A DNA stretch of 34,653 nucleotides from Kangiella sp. (GTDB taxonomy: Bacteria; Pseudomonadota; Gammaproteobacteria; Enterobacterales; Kangiellaceae), in the NCBI RefSeq assembly GCF_014762745.1, contig NZ_JABURJ010000015.1, positions 85,303 to 119,955 of the forward strand. Direction: 5' to 3'. The notes under the pieces were generated by a model, which worked only from the letters and a program-made list of their open reading frames with translations, was not told the origin of the DNA and did not search any database. Below are positions 1,398-9,180 of the stretch, piece after piece (position 1 is the first letter of the stretch; each line of letters begins with the position of its first letter). The translations under genes were made by a program, and so were the position numbers.

Positions 1398-2615
1398 CTA
1401 GGATCTTACCTGCATACTGCGTTCATGCCAAACCAATTGCTCCGCTTCGGCCAATGGACGCCCTATTTCCGCCAATTGAGTGCGCCCTTGTTCGGTCACC
1501 TGCTGGTACGACTGAATATTCATAAAGCTTTGCACGCATAAACCACTGGAACGATTAGCGCTGCCCATGGTCGGTAAGGTGTGGTTAGGCCCAGCACAAT
1601 AATCGCCAAAGGCAACCGCGCTATTCTGGCCAATAAAGAGTGAACCATAGTGCTTCAACTGTTCTGGTTGAATTCTCTCATCGGCCAGCAACAAGTGCTC
1701 TGGCGCATACCGATTGCTGAACTTAATCATGTCGTCGACGTTGCGAGCCTGTAACAACACAATTTGCTCATCTTTTAACAGGTTATATAGCTCTTCATTG
1801 GCAATAAGCTGTTGCTCGACAGATTCTAAAAATGCTAGATCATCACTGACCAACACGCTTTGCGCCTGTGGATCGTGCTCCGCCTGCGCTGCCATATCCG
1901 CAATCAGCCATTCCTGATTAGCCTCAGCATTGGCCAGGATCAGCAATTCGCTTGGCCCGGCCGCCACATCAATCTTGATACGACTTTGCAGCAACTGCTT
2001 AGTCACATTGACATATTGATTACCGGGTCCCACCACCATCTGCACCGGCAACATATCCTGATAACCAAATGCCATGGCTGCAACGGCTTGCGCTCCACCG
2101 ATCTGCCAAAACTCAGTAGCGCCAGCCAGCGATGCCGCAGCTAAAATCGCAGGGTGTACTGATGGCGAGCAGGCTATTCGACGTTCGCAACCTGCAACTC
2201 GTGCCGGAATTAATGTCATTAAAGCCGTAGAGATAAGCGGAAAACGGCCGCCCGGAATATAAGCACCAATCGCCTCTATCGGACTGTACTGAAATCCAAA
2301 GACGCCATTTTTTTCTTCAATCTGCTGCGGCTGCAAAGTGTCTTTCTGCAAAGTACAAAAAGCTTCTATTCGCTGCGCAGCCTGCTCAATGGAGTTCAGT
2401 AGCTGTGGGGCGAGCTCATAATCACGATAAGGTTTCAGTTCAATTTTGCGCGGCTGATAGCCATCAAAACGTTTACTCAAACTATCAATCGCCAGATCGC
2501 CACCAGTTTCAATTTCTTGCAACAGTTTTGCCACCTGCTGAAACAACTCAGGTGATTGGGTGAGATTAGGACGCTTCCAGTTAGAGGAGCATTCAATGTA
2601 AGATTTATCCGCCAT
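1398..2615 (-). CDS. hisD: Histidinol dehydrogenase
   Basis: HisD carries out the last two steps, NAD-dependent oxidation of L-histidinol to histidine, as a zinc enzyme. At 405 residues it is a little shorter than the usual ~430. Visible motifs are [14 protein letters not shown], the [15 protein letters not shown] segment, [23 protein letters not shown] and the zinc/active-site [29 protein letters not shown] (Asp ligand) and a C-terminal EAEQLVWH (terminal His ligand) complete the set. The ATG has an AGGAG site 6 bases upstream and overlaps the end of hisA-hisIE by 11 bp, so translation is likely coupled. HisD is the last his gene here, whereas in enterobacteria it is second after hisG. Confidence 0.97.
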
Positions 2616-3843
2616 TACGTGCTCCTAATTCGTTAATGATATCGCTCGATGAAACACCTTTTGATTTAGCACGAGCCAAGGCAAAGAAGATCAAGTCCGC
2701 GGCTTCCCAGCGAACTTCATCTTTATCATCAGCTTCGATTAATTCTTCGCATTCTTCGCGTAGCTTTTCCTGTTGCAGTTCATCACTGGCTAACAATTTC
2801 TGACTGAAAGTTTTTACTTCTGAAGTTTGCATGCGCTGCTCGAAAACACGATCCAGGGTATCCAGCTCGAACGATGCTGACTGACCGGCGAAACAACTAT
2901 AGCGCTCAAAATGACAGGCATTACCTGTTTGTCTGACTTTGAACAATAAAGTATCGCCATCGCAGTCATAATCGACATTAACCAACTGTTGTTGATTACC
3001 ACTGGTTAAGCCTTTCTCCCATAACTCATTACGCGAACGGCTGAAGTAAATACCAGCACGCTTGCTGATGGCAGCTTCTAGCGAAGCCTGATTAGAATAG
3101 GCCAGCATCAGTACAATGCCCGTATCAACATCCTGGACAATGGTAGGAATCAACGGCGCTTTCTCAAAATCGAGACAAGCCATAACTGCTTCATCCAGTT
3201 TCAACTTACCGGTATAAATCGACATGCCAAGCTGGCTATTAGCACCCAGCTTGTTGATGTATTTGATGTCGTCCAGATCGGTGATGCCACCAGCGACTGT
3301 TACCGGAATCTTCGACTGCTTGATGACCTGCTCTATACGCTCACGATCAATGCCCTGCATCATCCCTTCTTTTTCCACTTGGGTATAAAGAAACTCTGAG
3401 CAGTTTTGTTGCAACTCATCAATCATGGCTGCGACTTTATTACTTGAAGCGGACTGCCAACCATGTGTCACCCAATCATCGCCTTTTGCATCAATGGCAA
3501 AAATGAGCTGTGACTTTGGCAACTTTTTAACAAACTCTTCGCGACAACAAGTGCCTAAAATAATCTTTTTAGCACCACTGGCAAGATAATCTCTGGCCGT
3601 ATCATAATCTCTAATCCCCCCACCTACGCGACACGGAAACTTCTTAATCATTTGCTTAATTAAATCTTTATTGTCGCCTCTGCCTAAAGCGGCATTTAAA
3701 TCAATAATGGCGACTTCGCCAAACAAAGAAAACTCTTCCAACAATTCGAACAAGTTGTCTTTTTCAACAATCTTCCGGCTGGCATCGCCTTGCTGTAATT
3801 GCACTGCCTTGCCATCTAATAAATCAATACTTGGAATTAACAT
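2605..3843 (-). CDS. hisA-hisIE: Bifunctional-to-trifunctional fusion: HisA isomerase + HisIE cyclohydrolase/pyrophosphohydrolase
   Basis: One 412-residue frame carries two normally separate proteins. Residues 1 to ~225 are HisA, the ProFAR isomerase: the start IPSIDLLDGKAVQLQQGD has catalytic Asp7, IFAIDAK has the second Asp at 118, and AGGITD and GMSIYTG are phosphate-binding loops. From ~228 the protein is HisI (phosphoribosyl-AMP cyclohydrolase), with PTIVQDVDTG, YFSRSRNELWEKGLTSGN, DCDGD and the zinc cysteines of ACHFERYSCF. From ~325 it is HisE (phosphoribosyl-ATP pyrophosphatase), with LREECEELIEA and EAADLIFFALARA. HisIE is a common fusion; attachment to HisA is not the standard arrangement. 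It starts 11 bp after hisF and overlaps hisD. All domains look intact, and the single open frame argues against a sequencing artefact. Confidence 0.93.
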   Translation of the reverse strand: MLIPSIDLLDGKAVQLQQGDASRKIVEKDNLFELLEEFSLFGEVAIIDLNAALGRGDNKDLIKQMIKKFPCRVGGGIRDYDTARDYLASGAKKIILGTCCREEFVKKLPKSQLIFAIDAKGDDWVTHGWQSASSNKVAAMIDELQQNCSEFLYTQVEKEGMMQGIDRERIEQVIKQSKIPVTVAGGITDLDDIKYINKLGANSQLGMSIYTGKLKLDEAVMACLDFEKAPLIPTIVQDVDTGIVLMLAYSNQASLEAAISKRAGIYFSRSRNELWEKGLTSGNQQQLVNVDYDCDGDTLLFKVRQTGNACHFERYSCFAGQSASFELDTLDRVFEQRMQTSEVKTFSQKLLASDELQQEKLREECEELIEADDKDEVRWEAADLIFFALARAKSKGVSSSDIINELGARNGG

Positions 3844-3854
3844 ATTTTTAAACC

Positions 3855-4685
3855 TTAACCTTTTAAGTATTCGTTTCGAACGGCAACACCGTTTCTTAAT
3901 AATTCGTCTTTCACCTGGCCAACTGTATATTCACCGCGATGGAACATGCCTGCAGCCAGTGCTGCGTCGCTGCCTGCGAGAAAGGTTTCGGTAAAGTGTT
4001 CAGGTTTTGACGCTCCGCCAGAGGCAATCACTTGAATACCAAGTTGCTGACTGACCTTGCTCATCAATTCATTATCAAAGCCTAGGCCAGTACCATCACG
4101 ATGCATCGCTGTCAGCAAGACTTCACCAGCACCTCGCTGCTCTACTTCTGCAAGCCACTGCATCGCATCTAAATCGGTTGGGGTATTGCCACCGTTGATA
4201 AAGACCTGGTAATTTTCGCCCTCTAGTTGCTGGTCTTTCTCTTGATTTAAGTCCACAGCCACCACTACACACTGCGAACCAAAACCCTTAGCAATCTGGT
4301 CAATCAAATCAGGGTGCTTAACTGCAGCACTGTTCAGTGCCACTTTGTCTGCTCCGGCGTTTAGGAACTGTGCCACATCAGTGTAAGTATTAAGGCCCCC
4401 GCCGACGGTAAAGGGAATCGACAAATTTTCAGCTACCCGGGTTACCGTTTCTAAAGCATTAGCGCGCTGCTCAAGAGTCGCCTTGATATCAAGAAATACA
4501 ATCTCATCAGCACCCTGCTCCTGGTAACGAATTGCTAATTCAACGGGGTCGCCCATATCCTGCAAGCCTTTAAAATTGACACCTTTGACCACACGGCCAT
4601 GTGCCACATCAAGGCATACAATGACGCGCGACTTAAGGCCCTGTTCAGTTTTCTTGATTAACTCAGAGCTGTTTAACTCAGACAT
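3855..4685 (-). CDS. hisF: Imidazole glycerol phosphate synthase, cyclase subunit
   Basis: HisF is the TIM-barrel subunit that uses ammonia from HisH to turn PRFAR into imidazole glycerol phosphate and AICAR. It shows the [18 protein letters not shown] start region, FLDIKAT, the phosphate loop FTVGGGLNT, a second catalytic Asp in [30 protein letters not shown] and VIASGGA. I placed the start at the ATG at 4685 (MSELNSSEL), which has GAGG 10 bases upstream; this leaves a longer N-terminus than the usual MLAKR start. The upstream in-frame extension lies wholly within hisH and is unlikely to be used. The gene overlaps the hisH end by 13 bp, as expected for two subunits of one heterodimer. Confidence 0.96.
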
Positions 4686-5281
4686 TGCTTTAATACCTCT
4701 TCGCCAGCTATACCCGATTTTTCCGGGTGGCATTGAAATGCAATCATGTTCTTGCTCGAAACGGCCGCTACAAATGTTTGCCCATAAGTCACTGTCGCAA
4801 TGGATTGAACGCTGGTTCTAACACCATAACTATTCACAAAATAAAGTGTCTGGTTATTAAGCCAGTCTTGACTCGACTGAACATCAGCCCAGCCAACCAT
4901 AGGCTGTTTTGGACTTTGTAGGCGAGTCACTTTGCCCTGCAACAATCCCAGCCCTGCAACATCAGGATCTTCTTCAGATTCTTCAAACATAATCTGCAAG
5001 CCAACACAGATACCAATCAGTTTTTTGTTGTCCCGATACCAGTTCGTTATAACCTCATCCAAGCCACTAGCCTTCAGATTGGTCATCACAGTTCCAAATC
5101 GTCCCTGACCAGGAACCACCAAAGCGGAAAGCTCGCAGCGCTCCAGATCGCTCGCTTGGTTGATAGTGACCGGGTAAAACCCTATACGGCGCAAGCAACC
5201 GTTTAAGCTGTATAAGTTGCCAGCACCGGTATTGATAATACCGATCTTTTTGTGGCGCTCATTAATGATAGCTTCAATCAT
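4673..5281 (-). CDS. hisH: Imidazole glycerol phosphate synthase, glutamine amidotransferase subunit
   Basis: HisH hydrolyses glutamine and channels ammonia to HisF. The 202-residue protein is a class I amidotransferase: IGIINTGAGNL at the start, an oxyanion region VVPGQGRFGTVM, the nucleophile Cys in GICVGLQIMFE, and the His/Glu pair in FQCHPEKSG. It overlaps hisB by 4 bp (ATGA) and hisF by 13 bp, so it is translationally coupled on both sides. The start at 5281 leaves about ten residues ahead of the conserved core, which is slightly long but dictated by the overlap with hisB. Confidence 0.96.
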   Translation of the reverse strand: MIEAIINERHKKIGIINTGAGNLYSLNGCLRRIGFYPVTINQASDLERCELSALVVPGQGRFGTVMTNLKASGLDEVITNWYRDNKKLIGICVGLQIMFEESEEDPDVAGLGLLQGKVTRLQSPKQPMVGWADVQSSQDWLNNQTLYFVNSYGVRTSVQSIATVTYGQTFVAAVSSKNMIAFQCHPEKSGIAGEEVLKQCLS

Positions 5282-5874
5282 AAACTCCCCTTGGAGCTGT
5301 TGGCTCCCAGCTTAGGAATCAATGCCTCGCGCAGTGCAAAAGCGAGGCCTTTAAAGCTGGCTTCAATCAAGTGGTGATTGTTATCGAAATACTCCACTTT
5401 AATGTGCAGACTGATTTGCGCATTAATGGCAAAGGTGTAGAAAAAGTGTTTCCACATCTCGGTTGCGATATTACCAATCATCTCGCGAGTAAAAGGTAAG
5501 TCGGTTACACCATAACCACGGCCACAAACATCCACCGCGACCATGATCAGGCTGGCATCCATTGGTAATAAGCGTTGACCATAACGGGTAATCGATTGCT
5601 GTTGACGCCACGCTTGTTGCAAAGCCTGGCCTAAACAAATCGCTACATCTTCAATCAAGTGATGGTCATCAACCTCTAAGTCACCTTTCGCTTCAAGCTG
5701 TAAATCCCAACCCGCATGCAACGCTAACTGGGTCAGCATGTGATCGTAAAACGGTAAACCTGTATTGATTTTGAGTTGCTGTGTGCCATAAATATTCAGC
5801 TCCAATCGAATCGCGGTTTCTTTGGTTTGGCGGACTATTGAAACTATCGACTGATTTTTCGTTTGTTCTGTCAT
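5278..5874 (-). CDS. hisB: Imidazoleglycerol-phosphate dehydratase (monofunctional)
   Basis: HisB dehydrates imidazole glycerol phosphate to imidazole acetol phosphate using Mn ions. The 198-residue length matches the single-domain form. The metal-binding motifs are DHMLTQLALH, DDHHLIEDVAICLG and DNNHHLIEASFKGLA. It has no N-terminal HAD phosphatase domain, unlike the bifunctional E. coli HisB. The missing histidinol-phosphatase is plausibly supplied by the HAD domain fused to HisC just upstream, whose stop overlaps this start by 4 bp. Confidence 0.96.
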   Translation of the reverse strand: MTEQTKNQSIVSIVRQTKETAIRLELNIYGTQQLKINTGLPFYDHMLTQLALHAGWDLQLEAKGDLEVDDHHLIEDVAICLGQALQQAWRQQQSITRYGQRLLPMDASLIMVAVDVCGRGYGVTDLPFTREMIGNIATEMWKHFFYTFAINAQISLHIKVEYFDNNHHLIEASFKGLAFALREALIPKLGANSSKGSL

Positions 5875-7568
5875 AACAACCTCTCTAATTCATTGACAGA
5901 CGCCACTACCAGATCGGCCCCCGCCTGGTATAAATTATTAGCGCTTTCGCTTTCGGCAATACCTATGGCCAATGCCCCAGCGGCTTTAGCCGCCTGAATA
6001 TCATCCGGTGTATCACCCAGCATCCAGCAGTAAGTTGAACCGTAATAGGTTTTGCACTGATTGATGCCCTCTGGCGCAGGCTTGGATTCAATAACGTCAC
6101 AATCACTGACCAGATATGTATTTCGAATACCCAATAGCTCCAAGCCAATTTCTGCTTCTCCACGAGGACGCCCCGTGACCACCGCAGTTTTAAATTGCTT
6201 GCTATTCTGCACAAATAACTGAGTGCAAAGCTTGGTACTTAATAAGGCCTCTTCTAATTGATTAAGACCTGCCTGCTCACCGTTACCCAAGTAAAACTGC
6301 TGAAACTGTTCAACCACTGACTCGTAGTCTGGTAATGATTCATCCTGTTGCTGCTTTATCAATTCATAAGTCAGTACCCAGTCATTATTAAATCCACCAC
6401 GTGAACGTAATGTGTCGATTGCCTGCTGCTCAAGTTTTGTCTTAGTAAAAAACTCTACAGTTTGCTTAATAGCAGCGTCATAACTTTTACTGGTATCAAT
6501 TAGGACACCATCCATATCAAAGCAAATCAATTCAGGTTTAAGCGCGAGTACCAAAGCCTGTCTTAGCGCTTCAATCTCATAAGGAATGGCAATACGTATG
6601 GCTGACTGCTCTTGTGAACCCAACTCCTTTTGCTCTAAGCCAACCAAATCAGTTTTAATCTGGATATTGCTTTGTTCACAAGCCGCTTTAATCAGCTGCA
6701 ATCGTTGCGAGTTATCCACAATCAGAATAAAGTTGGCCTCGCTATCTAGCACATTCAAACCACGCTGGCGCAAAAACTGCACTAACAGATCACGGTTCTC
6801 TGCGATGCGTTGAGTAAAGTCCGCCACATCATGCTGCGCTGCTTGAGTGAATGCCTGAATTGCGATTTCCAGAGTTGGCTGCGGCACATTGAATGGCATC
6901 TTGCGCTCAGCAAATCGCTGGATGAAAGCTTTGCTGCCCAATAGATAGCCACATCGAATGCCAGCCAGTCCATAAGCTTTAGATAAAGTGCGAAGCAGCA
7001 CCAGATTGTCGAACTCTTCCAGCAAAGACAGCGACTCTGTTGTCTGTCCTGTAAACTCGATATAAGCCTGATCAAGAAAGACCTCCGCTCCTTTGTTCTT
7101 AGCCTTTTGACAAGCATCTCTAATGACATCCAAACTCAGGGTTTCACCGGTTGGGTTATTAGGACTGGTCAATACCAGAATCGAATTCTCTGTTAGCGCT
7201 TGCAGGCTTGCCTCAAGATCAATTGATAGATCTGGCTTAGCTGGAATCAGTTTAGCTTTACTGTTCCAAACTTTGATACCTGATAAATATTGACTAAAAG
7301 CAGGCATAGGAATGATCAACTCACGCTGCTCAAGCGTTGCCAGTTTGAACATCAGTTCAATCGCTTCGTCGCCACCGTTGGTTACTAAAATCTGCTCGGG
7401 GCTCAAACCCAATTGCTTACTCATTGCTGACTTCAACTGTGACTGATCGGGATAGCGCCAATAATTCTGTGGCGATAGTTTGCTGATATCTAACCACTCA
7501 GGAAAACGATCCGCCCGCTCATTAAAATCGAGCTTTAAAGGCTCAGTTCTAGTTTCTTGCATATTCAT
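5871..7568 (-). CDS. hisC: Histidinol-phosphate aminotransferase fused to a HAD-family phosphatase
   Basis: This 565-residue protein joins two domains. Residues 1 to ~342 are HisC, the PLP enzyme that makes histidinol phosphate: TSPNNPTG, LDQAYIEF, the PLP lysine Lys197 in TLSKAYGLAG and the RIAIPYE substrate-binding end. From ~347 to the end is a complete HAD hydrolase: motif I FDMDGVLID, motif II VVTGRPRGEAE, motif III ESKPAPEG and motif IV MLGDTPDDIQAAKAAG. The aminotransferase product is the substrate of histidinol-phosphatase, and hisB here lacks that domain. I therefore infer that the HAD part is the histidinol-phosphatase; it could instead be a phosphatase of other specificity. I chose the ATG at 7568 because AAGGA lies 8 bases upstream; a GTG one codon earlier is less likely. 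It overlaps hisB by 4 bp. Confidence 0.92.
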   Translation of the reverse strand: MNMQETRTEPLKLDFNERADRFPEWLDISKLSPQNYWRYPDQSQLKSAMSKQLGLSPEQILVTNGGDEAIELMFKLATLEQRELIIPMPAFSQYLSGIKVWNSKAKLIPAKPDLSIDLEASLQALTENSILVLTSPNNPTGETLSLDVIRDACQKAKNKGAEVFLDQAYIEFTGQTTESLSLLEEFDNLVLLRTLSKAYGLAGIRCGYLLGSKAFIQRFAERKMPFNVPQPTLEIAIQAFTQAAQHDVADFTQRIAENRDLLVQFLRQRGLNVLDSEANFILIVDNSQRLQLIKAACEQSNIQIKTDLVGLEQKELGSQEQSAIRIAIPYEIEALRQALVLALKPELICFDMDGVLIDTSKSYDAAIKQTVEFFTKTKLEQQAIDTLRSRGGFNNDWVLTYELIKQQQDESLPDYESVVEQFQQFYLGNGEQAGLNQLEEALLSTKLCTQLFVQNSKQFKTAVVTGRPRGEAEIGLELLGIRNTYLVSDCDVIESKPAPEGINQCKTYYGSTYCWMLGDTPDDIQAAKAAGALAIGIAESESANNLYQAGADLVVASVNELERLL

Positions 7569-7593
7569 CACACTTATCCTTTTGTAAACGGTG

Positions 7594-8442
7594 TTACAGC
7601 ACTTTACGGATCGGCGTTTCTAAAATATCCGTCGCACCGGCAGTAATCAGCTTTGGCAACAAGTCTTTAATCAGCTTACGCTCAATAGCAGCTTTAATGG
7701 CAAAACCATCGGCGTTATATAAACGGCTCACGGTTGGTGCGCGCATTGCTGGTAGCAAATCAACCACTTGGTCAATACTTTCTTCCGAACAGTTCATCTC
7801 AAGCAAGACACGCTTACGACCATTCAAAACACCTCGCATTAATAGCAATAAATCATCAATCTGCTGACGCTTCTCTGGATCATTAAGCACATTTTTATTG
7901 GCAATAAGCTGGGTCGAACTTTCCATGACGGTATCCACAATCTTCAAACGATTAGCACGAATGGTTGAACCGGTACTGGTATTGTCGATGACCATATCCG
8001 CATCCTCTGGCGGGAATACTTCGGTCGCCCCATAAGCACGGAGCAGCTGATATTGAACGCCTAATTTATCAAGGTACTTTGCTGAAATCTTTTTATACTC
8101 AGAAGCAACAATGATTTTACGTTGCTGCACTTCATTCCAGTCCCAGTCTTCTGGAATACAGGAAACCAGTCTGACCGGGTTAAAACCTAAATCTTCAAGT
8201 ACCTCAACATCCGCCTCCTGTTCCAGGATCCAGTCCATACCGGCAAAACCAATATCGTGTTGACCCAACGCCACCATTTCTGGAATATTCTGACTTTTCA
8301 GCAACTTAACCTCGATATCACAGCCAAATAGCTGAGGGCGATAATTGCGACTGTCACCAACCAGCGTCAAACCAATATCAGAAAGTAGCTCAGCCACCTT
8401 GTCATACAACTTCCCTTTTGGGATTACCATTTTTAAAGCCAT
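7594..8442 (-). CDS. hisG: ATP phosphoribosyltransferase, long form
   Basis: HisG condenses ATP and PRPP, the committed first step of histidine synthesis, and is feedback-inhibited by histidine. The start MALKMVIPKGKLYDKV is set by the ATG at 8442, with AGGAG 7 bases upstream; a longer in-frame reading would run through the attenuator terminator. At 282 residues it is the long, self-contained form with a C-terminal regulatory domain (from about residue 205), so no HisZ partner is needed. The PRPP-binding signature is seen as DADMVIDNTSTGSTIRAN, with GFAGMDW earlier. It is the first structural gene behind two his attenuators and lies 25 bp ahead of hisC. Confidence 0.95.
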   Translation of the reverse strand: MALKMVIPKGKLYDKVAELLSDIGLTLVGDSRNYRPQLFGCDIEVKLLKSQNIPEMVALGQHDIGFAGMDWILEQEADVEVLEDLGFNPVRLVSCIPEDWDWNEVQQRKIIVASEYKKISAKYLDKLGVQYQLLRAYGATEVFPPEDADMVIDNTSTGSTIRANRLKIVDTVMESSTQLIANKNVLNDPEKRQQIDDLLLLMRGVLNGRKRVLLEMNCSEESIDQVVDLLPAMRAPTVSRLYNADGFAIKAAIERKLIKDLLPKLITAGATDILETPIRKVL

Positions 8443-8500: not shown

Positions 8501-8538
8501 AATAAAAAACCCCGTTGACCTTGCGGAGCAACGGGGTT
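8501..8538 (-). terminator. Second (promoter-distal) his attenuator terminator
   Basis: On the minus strand the stem AACCCCGTTG / CAACGGGGTT (10 bp, 11-nt loop) runs directly into TTTTTTATT, an intrinsic terminator 59 bp before the hisG start. Its 5' arm overlaps CCGTTGCTC (8526-8534), which can pair over 9 bp (one G-U) with GAGCGACGG (8605-8613) in the leader 2 coding region to form an antiterminator. Confidence 0.93.
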
Positions 8539-8562
8539 CTTAAACCTGAGTGTCATAACTGT

Positions 8563-8661
8563 TTAAACTGAATCCTGATAAAGTCTTAAACATAAGCACC
8601 ACCACCGTCGCTCGCGCAGTGTATGATGATGGTGATGATGTAAGCTCTTGTTTAAAAACAT
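8563..8661 (-). CDS. hisL: his operon leader peptide 2 (six consecutive His codons)
   Basis: A 32-codon frame from the ATG at 8661 reads MFLNKSL, then six His, then TLRERRWWCLCLRLYQDSV and TAA. The His codons (CAT CAT CAC CAT CAT CAT, 8623-8640) can pair, with wobbles, with GGTGGTGGTG at 8597-8606, giving the 1:2 pause hairpin. The overlapping GAGCGACGG can instead pair with the terminator arm. Ribosome stalling at uncharged His-tRNA should therefore let hisG be transcribed. The ribosome-binding site is weak (GAGA 8 bases upstream). The frame is longer than the 16-residue E. coli leader, and its stop lies well beyond the antiterminator strand. It is not a close copy of leader 1. Confidence 0.85.
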   Translation of the reverse strand: MFLNKSLHHHHHHTLRERRWWCLCLRLYQDSV

Positions 8662-8720
8662 GTTTATCTCAGTTTGTCAGTTTCAGTGTTCGGTTATAAA
8701 TAATCGGTTAAAAGTTACAG

Positions 8721-8754
8721 GTATAAAAAAAGCCCCGCTTGTCGGCGGGGCTTT
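8721..8754 (-). terminator. First (promoter-proximal) his attenuator terminator
   Basis: On the minus strand AAAGCCCCGC / GCGGGGCTTT with a 6-nt loop (CGACAA) is followed by TTTTTTATAC. This is a strong intrinsic terminator 24 bases after the leader 1 stop. The CCGCC at its 5' base (8744-8748) is complementary to GGCGG within leader 1 (8795-8799), giving the competing antiterminator. Confidence 0.94.
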
Positions 8755-8777
8755 TAGAAATTCCTAATCAGTAAATT

Positions 8778-8840
8778 TCACACATAAAGCAACACCGCCA
8801 ATCGGTCTGAATGGTGGTGATGGTGGTGAATTTGCGTCAT
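8778..8840 (-). CDS. hisL: his operon leader peptide 1 (six consecutive His codons)
   Basis: The frame from the ATG at 8840 reads MTQI, six His (CAC CAC CAT CAC CAC CAT), then SDRLAVLLYV and TGA, 20 residues, close in size to the E. coli his leader. An in-frame ATG at 8852 would add MNTV. The His codons can pair with GGCGGTG at 8793-8799 (one mismatch), and GGCGG in that segment can alternatively pair with CCGCC of the following terminator: the classic pause, antiterminator and terminator choice. The predicted transcription start is at about 8853, so the 8852 ATG would be nearly leaderless and the 8840 ATG would have only a ~12-nt leader. No good Shine-Dalgarno is visible for either. Confidence 0.88.
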   Translation of the reverse strand: MTQIHHHHHHSDRLAVLLYV

Positions 8841-8859
8841 TACTGTATTCATGAAGCTG

Positions 8860-8888
8860 ATTAAAACCTATTCGGTGGTTTGAGTCAA
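8860..8888 (-). promoter_or_regulatory. Probable sigma-70 promoter of the his operon
   Basis: On the minus strand TTGACT (8888-8883) and TTTAAT (8865-8860) are separated by exactly 17 bp, each matching the consensus at 5 of 6 positions. The predicted start, about 7 nt after the -10, falls at ~8853, immediately before leader 1, so both attenuators would be transcribed. Confidence 0.72.
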
Positions 8889-8950: not shown

Positions 8951-9180
8951 GGTTAACTCAGTGTTTCGCTTCTCAGCGACCTCCTTTTTATGAAGTACAT
9001 CCCCGTACTTCACCCAAGGGGCTAGCTTCGCTATTGAAAATCGTTCCAGACGATTTTTTCTTTTTCGCGTAAGACAAATTTGTCTGGAACAAATTTGAAC
9101 AGCGGAGTAAAACGACGCTGGCTTTAGCGGAATACAGGATGTATTCCGTAAAAAGAAGGTCGCCGACGGGCGAAATAACC
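8951..9180. repeat. Nested inverted-repeat element between ispD and the his promoter
   Basis: The interval ispD-his holds no credible gene but is a large imperfect palindrome. Outer arms are TTTCGC (8965-8970) with GCGAAA (9170-9175), and GCGACCTCCTTTTT (8976-8989) with AAAAAGAAGGTCGC (9150-9163, one mismatch). Inside are smaller hairpins: TGAAGTAC/GTACTTCA (8991-9012), AAAATCG/CGATTTT (9037-9057), GTTCCAGA/TCTGGAAC (9043-9090), the palindrome AGACAAATTTGTCT (9072-9085) and CGGAATAC/GTATTCCG (9128-9148). This architecture resembles a non-autonomous palindromic repeat (MITE or REP-like), which is inference. It may also end ispD transcription. Confidence 0.6.

Follow-up and report, generated by a model that had tools for sequence, protein, structure and literature searches.

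Two predicted histidine attenuators in series upstream of hisG in Kangiella and Marinicella-type bacteria

The his operon mRNA of Kangiella, started at a single promoter, probably crosses two independent, ribosome-mediated attenuators with His codons before it reaches hisG, with read-through at the two multiplying; we give this interpretation of the sequence a probability of about 0.8. Two attenuators in series had been proposed in an initial sequence-only reading of the locus, and this arrangement gave the best fit to the conservation of both units (25 of 28 loci), their covariation, the contrast in folding between ribosome positions, and the finding of neither a conserved intervening promoter nor co-evolution from one unit to the other.

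The his leader region of the Kangiella window

The window, that is, the whole stretch of 34,653 nucleotides that was analyzed (contig G000:C101), comes from a genome whose HisG shared 98% identity with that of a Kangiella metagenome-assembled genome (MAG) and 96% with that of Kangiella aquimarina. The order on the minus strand, where all the features described below lie, is ispD, promoter, leader ORF 1, terminator T1, leader ORF 2, terminator T2, and hisG. The latter (7594 to 8442, ATG at 8442) is the first structural gene, with the C-terminal domain PF08029 and an AGGAG just upstream, followed at 1398 to 7571 by a hisC-HAD fusion, hisB, hisH, hisF, a hisA-hisI/E fusion, and hisD, all with Pfam domains; gene names were assigned by domain and order. 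The fusion of hisA with hisI/hisE spans 2605 to 3843 and that of hisC with a HAD phosphatase-type domain 5871 to 7571, while hisD is the last gene of the operon. A dispersed repeat of ca. 135 bp, which recurs in the genome as 13 further near-full-length copies (77 to 88% identity), is found between ispD and the his promoter (8986 to 9120).

On both strands of the window, no ORFs other than the two leaders began with ATG, stopped within 50 codons, and contained at least five consecutive His codons. The single promoter that had been expected ahead of both units was located upstream of leader 1 (8860 to 8888), with a −35 box TTGACT (8888 to 8883), a 17-nt spacer, and a −10 box TTTAAT (8865 to 8860). 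Its score was reached by only 1% of shuffles, and it was missing from the list of a simple promoter scanner, whose rule requires the second base of the −10 box to be A. Leader peptide 1 (LP1; MNTVMTQIHHHHHHSDRLAVLLYV, 8778 to 8852) holds two ATGs, at 8852 and 8840. The two leaders with six His codons placed at 8840 to 8778 and 8661 to 8563 by the sequence-only reading are indeed both present, but the first is likelier to start at ATG 8852, since this codon is 7 nt past the −10 box at 8865 to 8860. Its six His codons (strand 1) are at 8811 to 8828, and strand 2 (TTGGCGGTGTTGC, 8789 to 8801) has as its partner strand 3 of the intrinsic terminator T1 (dG23, −13.5), predicted at 8725 to 8755 from sequence and pairing and consisting of the 3:4 strands and a T run.

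Upstream DNA was too short at one of the 25 loci with both units (L019, unit 1), which left 24 for the promoter count; in all 24, the best promoter had a 17-nt spacer and the leader ATG was 6 to 8 nt past the −10 box, and in 23 the promoter beat 95% of the shuffles. (L043, in which no ATG was found, was dropped from the corresponding test of single-unit loci.) Given this constant distance, the LP1 mRNA probably begins at or beside the AUG, that is, leader 1 would be leaderless.

Leader peptide 2 (LP2; MFLNKSLHHHHHHTLRERRWWCLCLRLYQDSV, 8563 to 8661) has its six His codons (strand 1) at 8623 to 8640. Strand 2 (GAGCGACGGTGGTGG, 8599 to 8613) can pair with CCGTTGCTC of strand 3 (8534 to 8526; dG23, −25.3), and the intrinsic terminator T2 (3:4 strands and T run) is predicted in the same way at 8504 to 8541. 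Thus, the terminator expected after each leader was recovered within a few bases (T1 at 8755 to 8725 and T2 at 8541 to 8504, compared with 8754 to 8721 and 8538 to 8501 originally), as was the 2:3 antiterminator pairing of each unit. The Shine-Dalgarno pairing of LP2 was weak, with a mean of −1.3 kcal/mol over 25 loci versus −5.5 for hisG. No above-chance promoter precedes LP2 in the window, and against a shuffle control, one was found in just 1 of the 25 tandem loci. The strong promoter between the units that had been named as decisive against the proposal was searched for, and none was conserved.

These data are also relevant to the idea that the gates answer different states, with a leaderless ORF and an ORF inside the mRNA loading ribosomes differently, so that the pair would sense histidine and also, for example under stress, the condition of the initiation machinery. 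Both the 6 to 8 nt that separate the LP1 start from the −10 box in every testable locus (24 of 24) and the near lack of LP2 promoters (1 of 25) are in line with it. However, the 5′ end of LP1 is a prediction from sequence, the Shine-Dalgarno of LP2 is weak too, and leaderless and Shine-Dalgarno-bearing trpL fusions are described as accumulating equally (PMC7298713), so we regard this alternative as unlikely, although the most plausible of those considered.

Conservation of the tandem arrangement

HisG relatives were drawn from genome contigs (29 loci) and from whole genomes. That the two units should be conserved across relatives had been suggested as a check, and it held: both were present in all 14 distinct Kangiella-group loci (one labeled only Kangiellaceae) and in 11 of 14 Marinicella-type loci (L015, L016, L018 to L025, and L027), for a total of 25 of 28, from isolates as well as MAGs. 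The three remaining Marinicella-type loci (L014, L017, and L030) carry one unit, which resembles unit 1. Nine more relatives with this HisG type also have one unit (L012, L013, L028, and L040 to L045), as do L026 and L029, labeled Acidobacteriota and Planctomycetota, respectively. Five loci (L033 to L037) repeat the peptides of L004, L008, L010, L009, and L011 and were not counted. Scanning of 105 other gammaproteobacterial hisG upstream regions (L046 to L150) revealed no tandem his leaders; 56 had one leader and 49 had none. These controls were not random and comprised 15 of the best-scoring loci of the order (L046 to L060), 30 of the class (L061 to L090), and 60 that were hand-picked (L091 to L150), the latter being, for the order, one per genus.

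In the NCBI taxonomy, Kangiella belongs to the Kangiellales and Marinicella to the Lysobacterales. The 14 Kangiella-group loci formed one clade in the HisG tree (99/98), while the Marinicella type needs three changes and the deep nodes were not separated; the history may thus have involved a single ancient doubling followed by losses, a transfer, or two separate doublings. The same tree indicated that two lineages lost a unit (L014, and L017 with L030), so the doubling is dispensable. In L016, L021, L023, and L025, a stretch (AATGGCGA) located after the last terminator and just before hisG appeared by eye to be complementary to strand 3, and L028 has another after its last terminator (GTAAACGG), also complementary by eye; such a stretch might be a fifth pairing element.

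Rfam His_leader (RF00514) detected only unit 1 in the window, at 27.1 bits against a cut-off of 49, with unit 2 not listed, so the two matches anticipated with this model did not materialize. At the gathering threshold, it gave no match in any of four further tandem his loci (L003, L008, L016, and L022), whereas the single-leader loci L054 and L126 were matched at 74 to 75 bits; the model seems not to cover this lineage and misses the tandem loci tested. Other Rfam families named in the window (BSnc120, IS605-orfB-II, and more) scored below their own cut-offs and were taken as terminator look-alikes. Separately, L003 has a weak match to TwoAYGGAY at 835 to 972 on the minus strand (44.9 bits; cut-off, 43).

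Two models, R1 and R2, built from the 14 Kangiella-group loci (R1 from unit 1), performed better. R1 matched both units in all 11 Marinicella-type tandem loci, none of which was in the training set, with E values of 0.02 or better. R2 also matched both units in these 11 loci, weakly at unit 2 of L018, L022, and L027 (E values of 0.06 to 0.29). Weak covariance matches prove little by themselves, since the palindromic terminators give opposite-strand matches of up to 30 bits. Judging from the differences between R1 and R2 scores, unit 2 of L016, L021, L023, L025, and L015 appears to be orthologous between the genera, the other loci being less clear. In a class-wide search, R2 found matches at an E value of 0.001 or better in 9 of 369 genomes, with two adjacent matches only in the source genome. 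Inspection of all nine R2 match places in other genomes showed no His-leader pair; the filters of this search were stricter and may have missed weak matches.

A recent or local duplication, or an assembly artifact, without lasting function would likewise give a doubled arrangement. Nevertheless, the two units are not alike in sequence, and isolates and MAGs from two orders have retained both in 25 loci; this bears out the original view that they are not a recent copy. In addition, covariance models from one genus match the units in the other. We consider the chance of such an origin negligible.

Predicted switching and independence of the two units

Switching was evaluated in the 25 tandem loci by folding nascent RNA truncated within the terminator loop, so that strand 4 was still absent, and placing the ribosome on either the third His codon or the stop codon; L026 and L029, with one unit each and foreign MAG labels, were excluded from the folding tests. 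The mean probability of 2:3 pairing, P(2:3), was 0.96 with the stalled ribosome versus 0.07 with the ribosome at stop for unit 1, and 0.87 versus 0.15 for unit 2. In the window, unit 1 gave 0.92 at the third His codon and 0.08 at stop, and unit 2 gave 1.00 when stalled and still 0.40 at stop. Free RNA had mean values of 0.68 (unit 1) and 0.82 (unit 2) over the 25 loci and of 1.00 for unit 2 of the window; therefore, the gates might stay open if untranslated. The 2:3 pairing was above 95% of dinucleotide shuffles in 23 (unit 1) and 22 (unit 2) of the 25 tandem loci and in 6 of 12 single-unit loci. The weakest element was the 1:2 pairing, above 95% of shuffles in 8 (unit 1) and 11 (unit 2) of 25 loci; the RNAalifold consensus of each unit contains a helix of the 1:2 type. 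Equilibrium folding at full length was discarded in favor of cut RNA as uninformative for a kinetic switch, the terminator winning in nearly all units and ribosome states. Switching must therefore depend on kinetics, as it does in classical attenuation. By sequence and computation, then, each unit has the makings of a leader-peptide his attenuator: a His-rich ORF, a predicted terminator, and a 2:3 pairing favored on stalling.

When unit 1 was aligned across the 25 loci, the 3:4 strands were paired in 99.2% of the alignment cells and the 2:3 strands in 86.5%. Columns 43 and 108 were G-C in 14 loci and A-U in 11, and columns 108 and 117 were C-G in 13 and U-A in 11. Since column 108 keeps both of its partners, 43 and 117, strands 2, 3, and 4 changed together; unit 2 of L015 showed a comparable triple change. 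For the 2:3 pairing of unit 1, three of five covariation measures exceeded all shuffles, while doubly changed pairs were reached by 356 and pair types by all of the 500 shuffles. For 3:4, three of five measures also exceeded all shuffles, the others being reached by 8 and 226 of 500. This covariation of unit 1 follows the genera and so amounts to few events, not many.

It could be argued that gate 2 alone regulates, gate 1 being a terminator, vestigial or constitutive, that imposes a fixed upper limit, or else a means of releasing a short leader RNA. The His run of unit 1 is broken in some species, reading HHSNHH in L039 (from the alignment, with unit and terminator kept) and HHDHHH in L006, and relatives with a single unit manage on one gate. 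On the other hand, leader, 2:3, and 3:4 of unit 1 are kept in all 25 tandem loci, with 23 above shuffles, the promoter in 24 of 24 testable loci, and the triple covariation, and it is the unit 1-like unit that one-unit Marinicella-type loci retain. We judge regulation by the second gate alone to be improbable.

Permutation of loci showed that the 2:3 strands of each unit pair better within than between loci over the 25 loci (P = 0.0005 for unit 1 and <0.0005 for unit 2). Within Kangiella alone and Marinicella alone, the P values were 0.64 and 0.30 for unit 1 and 0.05 and <0.0005 for unit 2; the co-evolution signal of unit 1 therefore rests on the difference between genera, being not significant within either. 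Three cross-unit pairings compared in the same way gave no signal over the 25 loci (P values of 1.0, 0.91, and 0.12). Because the antiterminator pairings within each unit co-evolve and those across units do not, we read the two units as probable independent gates. Judged by sequence, the locus has what a tandem switch consists of, namely, two complete units, one promoter, the same codon, and no cross-unit co-evolution. One of the cross-unit pairings would provide a relay, in which opening of gate 1 frees strand 4 (GGGG) to pair with strand 3 of unit 2 and thus helps to open gate 2, with true cooperativity. It is energetically possible (mean of −13.9 kcal/mol over 25 loci), yet it was no better within than between loci (P = 0.91), and GC-rich terminator arms are expected to pair so generically; a relay is therefore very improbable.

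Under the preferred reading of two independent gates, we infer that both ORFs are translated, that transcription terminates at each site, that the first leader is leaderless, that read-through at the two gates multiplies, and that this is of benefit. The first leader ORF, with its AUG at the 5′ end (probably leaderless), would be translated as the RNA emerges. With scarce His-tRNA, the ribosome would wait at the His codons, strands 2 and 3 would pair, and RNA polymerase would pass T1; with ample His-tRNA, the ribosome would cover strand 2, 3:4 would form, and the polymerase would stop. A polymerase leaking through or passing T1 would meet gate 2, with a leader ORF, antiterminator, and terminator of its own, where another ribosome would decide anew. 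Since the gates share no pairing partners, the read-through probabilities would multiply, so that fed cells would leak at the product of both leaks and starved cells would open both gates (“pseudo-cooperative”). Attenuation gates have been treated theoretically as a race between ribosome and RNA polymerase, in a text that uses neither “in series” nor “tandem” (PMC1183508). In our toy race model, with parameters chosen by us and each terminator leaking 10%, fed expression was 0.100 with one gate and 0.010 with two, and starved expression was ca. 0.999 for both; one gate with 12 His codons was more sensitive, but its leak was no lower (0.138). From this model and by analogy with tandem riboswitches for the same ligand (PMC9481103), the second gate would multiply repression and sharpen the response.

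Doubled Trp leaders and comparison with known systems

A search of the source genome with R1 revealed a further tandem pair (G000:C80, 119982 to 120287, minus strand), which precedes a gene for DAHP synthase and then trpE. A separate terminator follows each of its two Trp leaders, MNMNIIQNIWWWHVT and MTIHLKTDISLMANWWWFR. DAHP synthase of this type was found at an E value of 1e−30 in 18 of 30 genomes searched and was absent at this threshold from all 10 searched Marinicella-type genomes with both his units. All 16 readable upstream regions (of 18), 12 of them from the Kangiella group, had two Trp-rich leaders; L178 and L180 (contig ends) and L181 and L182 (second paralogs) were left out. P(2:3) was 0.96 versus 0.20 for the first unit and 0.92 versus 0.16 for the second, with values above 95% of shuffles in 14 and 10 of the 16, respectively. 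The leaderless geometry of LP1 was present in 15 of 16 (without shuffle control), and the second terminator of L177 was weak (−5.7 kcal/mol).

Across the order, 64 trpE upstream regions (30 best scoring, with no terminator required, and 34 hand-picked) included 42 with one candidate Trp leader, 19 with none, and 3 flagged as double. Two of these were real (L243 and L244, both of family f14), and L269 was judged false, as both ORFs share one terminator. Overall, all 12 Kangiella-group genomes examined and six relatives have tandem Trp leaders (L163 to L177, L179, L243, and L244); none were detected in seven Marinicella-type genomes. The his doubling is thus a feature of Kangiella and Marinicella and the trp doubling one of Kangiella and some relatives in the order. 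We lean slightly toward a broader view, in which doubling of attenuators for the same amino acid (his and trp) would be a general design of the Kangiella lineage and some neighbors. Gate 1 would be leaderless and fused to the promoter, gate 2 would lie within the mRNA, and the pair, a ribosome counterpart of pseudo-cooperative riboswitches, would respond to tRNA charging in a near-digital manner with very low leak.

Conservation in two orders, the probably leaderless leader 1, and the doubling in the trp operon go beyond the sequence-only reading. Textbook attenuation is a single gate, and a naturally doubled form conserved in two pathways offers a direct way to ask what a second gate buys; lower leak, a steeper response, and different ribosome loading are the candidate gains, with single-unit relatives as natural controls. 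Vitreschak and others reportedly made a comparative survey of proteobacterial attenuators in 2004. Classical hisL of Escherichia coli and Salmonella (RF00514) shares with Kangiella a leader ORF with His codons, stalling, an antiterminator, and an intrinsic terminator upstream of hisG. It has one unit, whereas Kangiella has two, an Rfam score below the cut-off, and an LP1 probably without Shine-Dalgarno, and the E. coli his leader is described in terms of AB, CD, and EF stem-loops (PMC10989985) instead of the 1:2, 2:3, and 3:4 design. T-boxes bind tRNA directly. Double T-boxes, such as the tandem his T-boxes before an Enterococcus transporter operon (PMC9413887), are, like the Kangiella units, two serial sensors of tRNA charging for one amino acid, although they have no leader peptide. 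The mgtCBR leader RNA of Salmonella, where tandem attenuators were called a singular example (PMC3641672), also has two leader ORFs and two attenuators, which respond to different signals (ATP and proline), while Kangiella would sense the same amino acid twice, with an intrinsic terminator per gate. Tandem riboswitches for the same ligand, e.g., TPP, termed pseudo-cooperative (PMC9481103), are two complete serial switches for one signal with a steeper response; there, the gates are ligand-binding aptamers, whereas in Kangiella they would be translating ribosomes.

Other systems share single features. The trpL transcript of the alphaproteobacterium Sinorhizobium meliloti starts with the leader ATG, as proposed for LP1, but it responds to Trp and one leader ORF is described (PMC7298713), compared to two in Kangiella. 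Some gammaproteobacterial rimP leaders have a second terminator and a potential antiterminator upstream of the first and, unlike Kangiella, are not presented there as a leader-peptide amino acid system (PMC2965389). Two leader peptides precede ermB, which is controlled by drug-induced translational attenuation, unlike Kangiella (PMC8274638). Within the open-access literature searched, we found no tandem leader-peptide attenuator for the same amino acid; an earlier mention elsewhere is possible.

Single leaders were also noticed upstream of other biosynthetic genes. A leader with an Arg-rich stretch and a terminator precedes argF-argG (names from reading of the translations) in the source genome (G000:C42, 10 to 123, minus strand) and in the Kangiella aquimarina genome (L221; MKHTLVLTAQLRRRSFRIRKAGVYSA), possibly an arginine leader-peptide attenuator. 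L226 has a single Thr leader (MIIFNTTTTTTTIFLTEVAG) with a terminator, at ca. 1456 to 1610, upstream of an aspartokinase gene (thrA-like by reading), and a TTGACA box begins 36 nt before its ATG.
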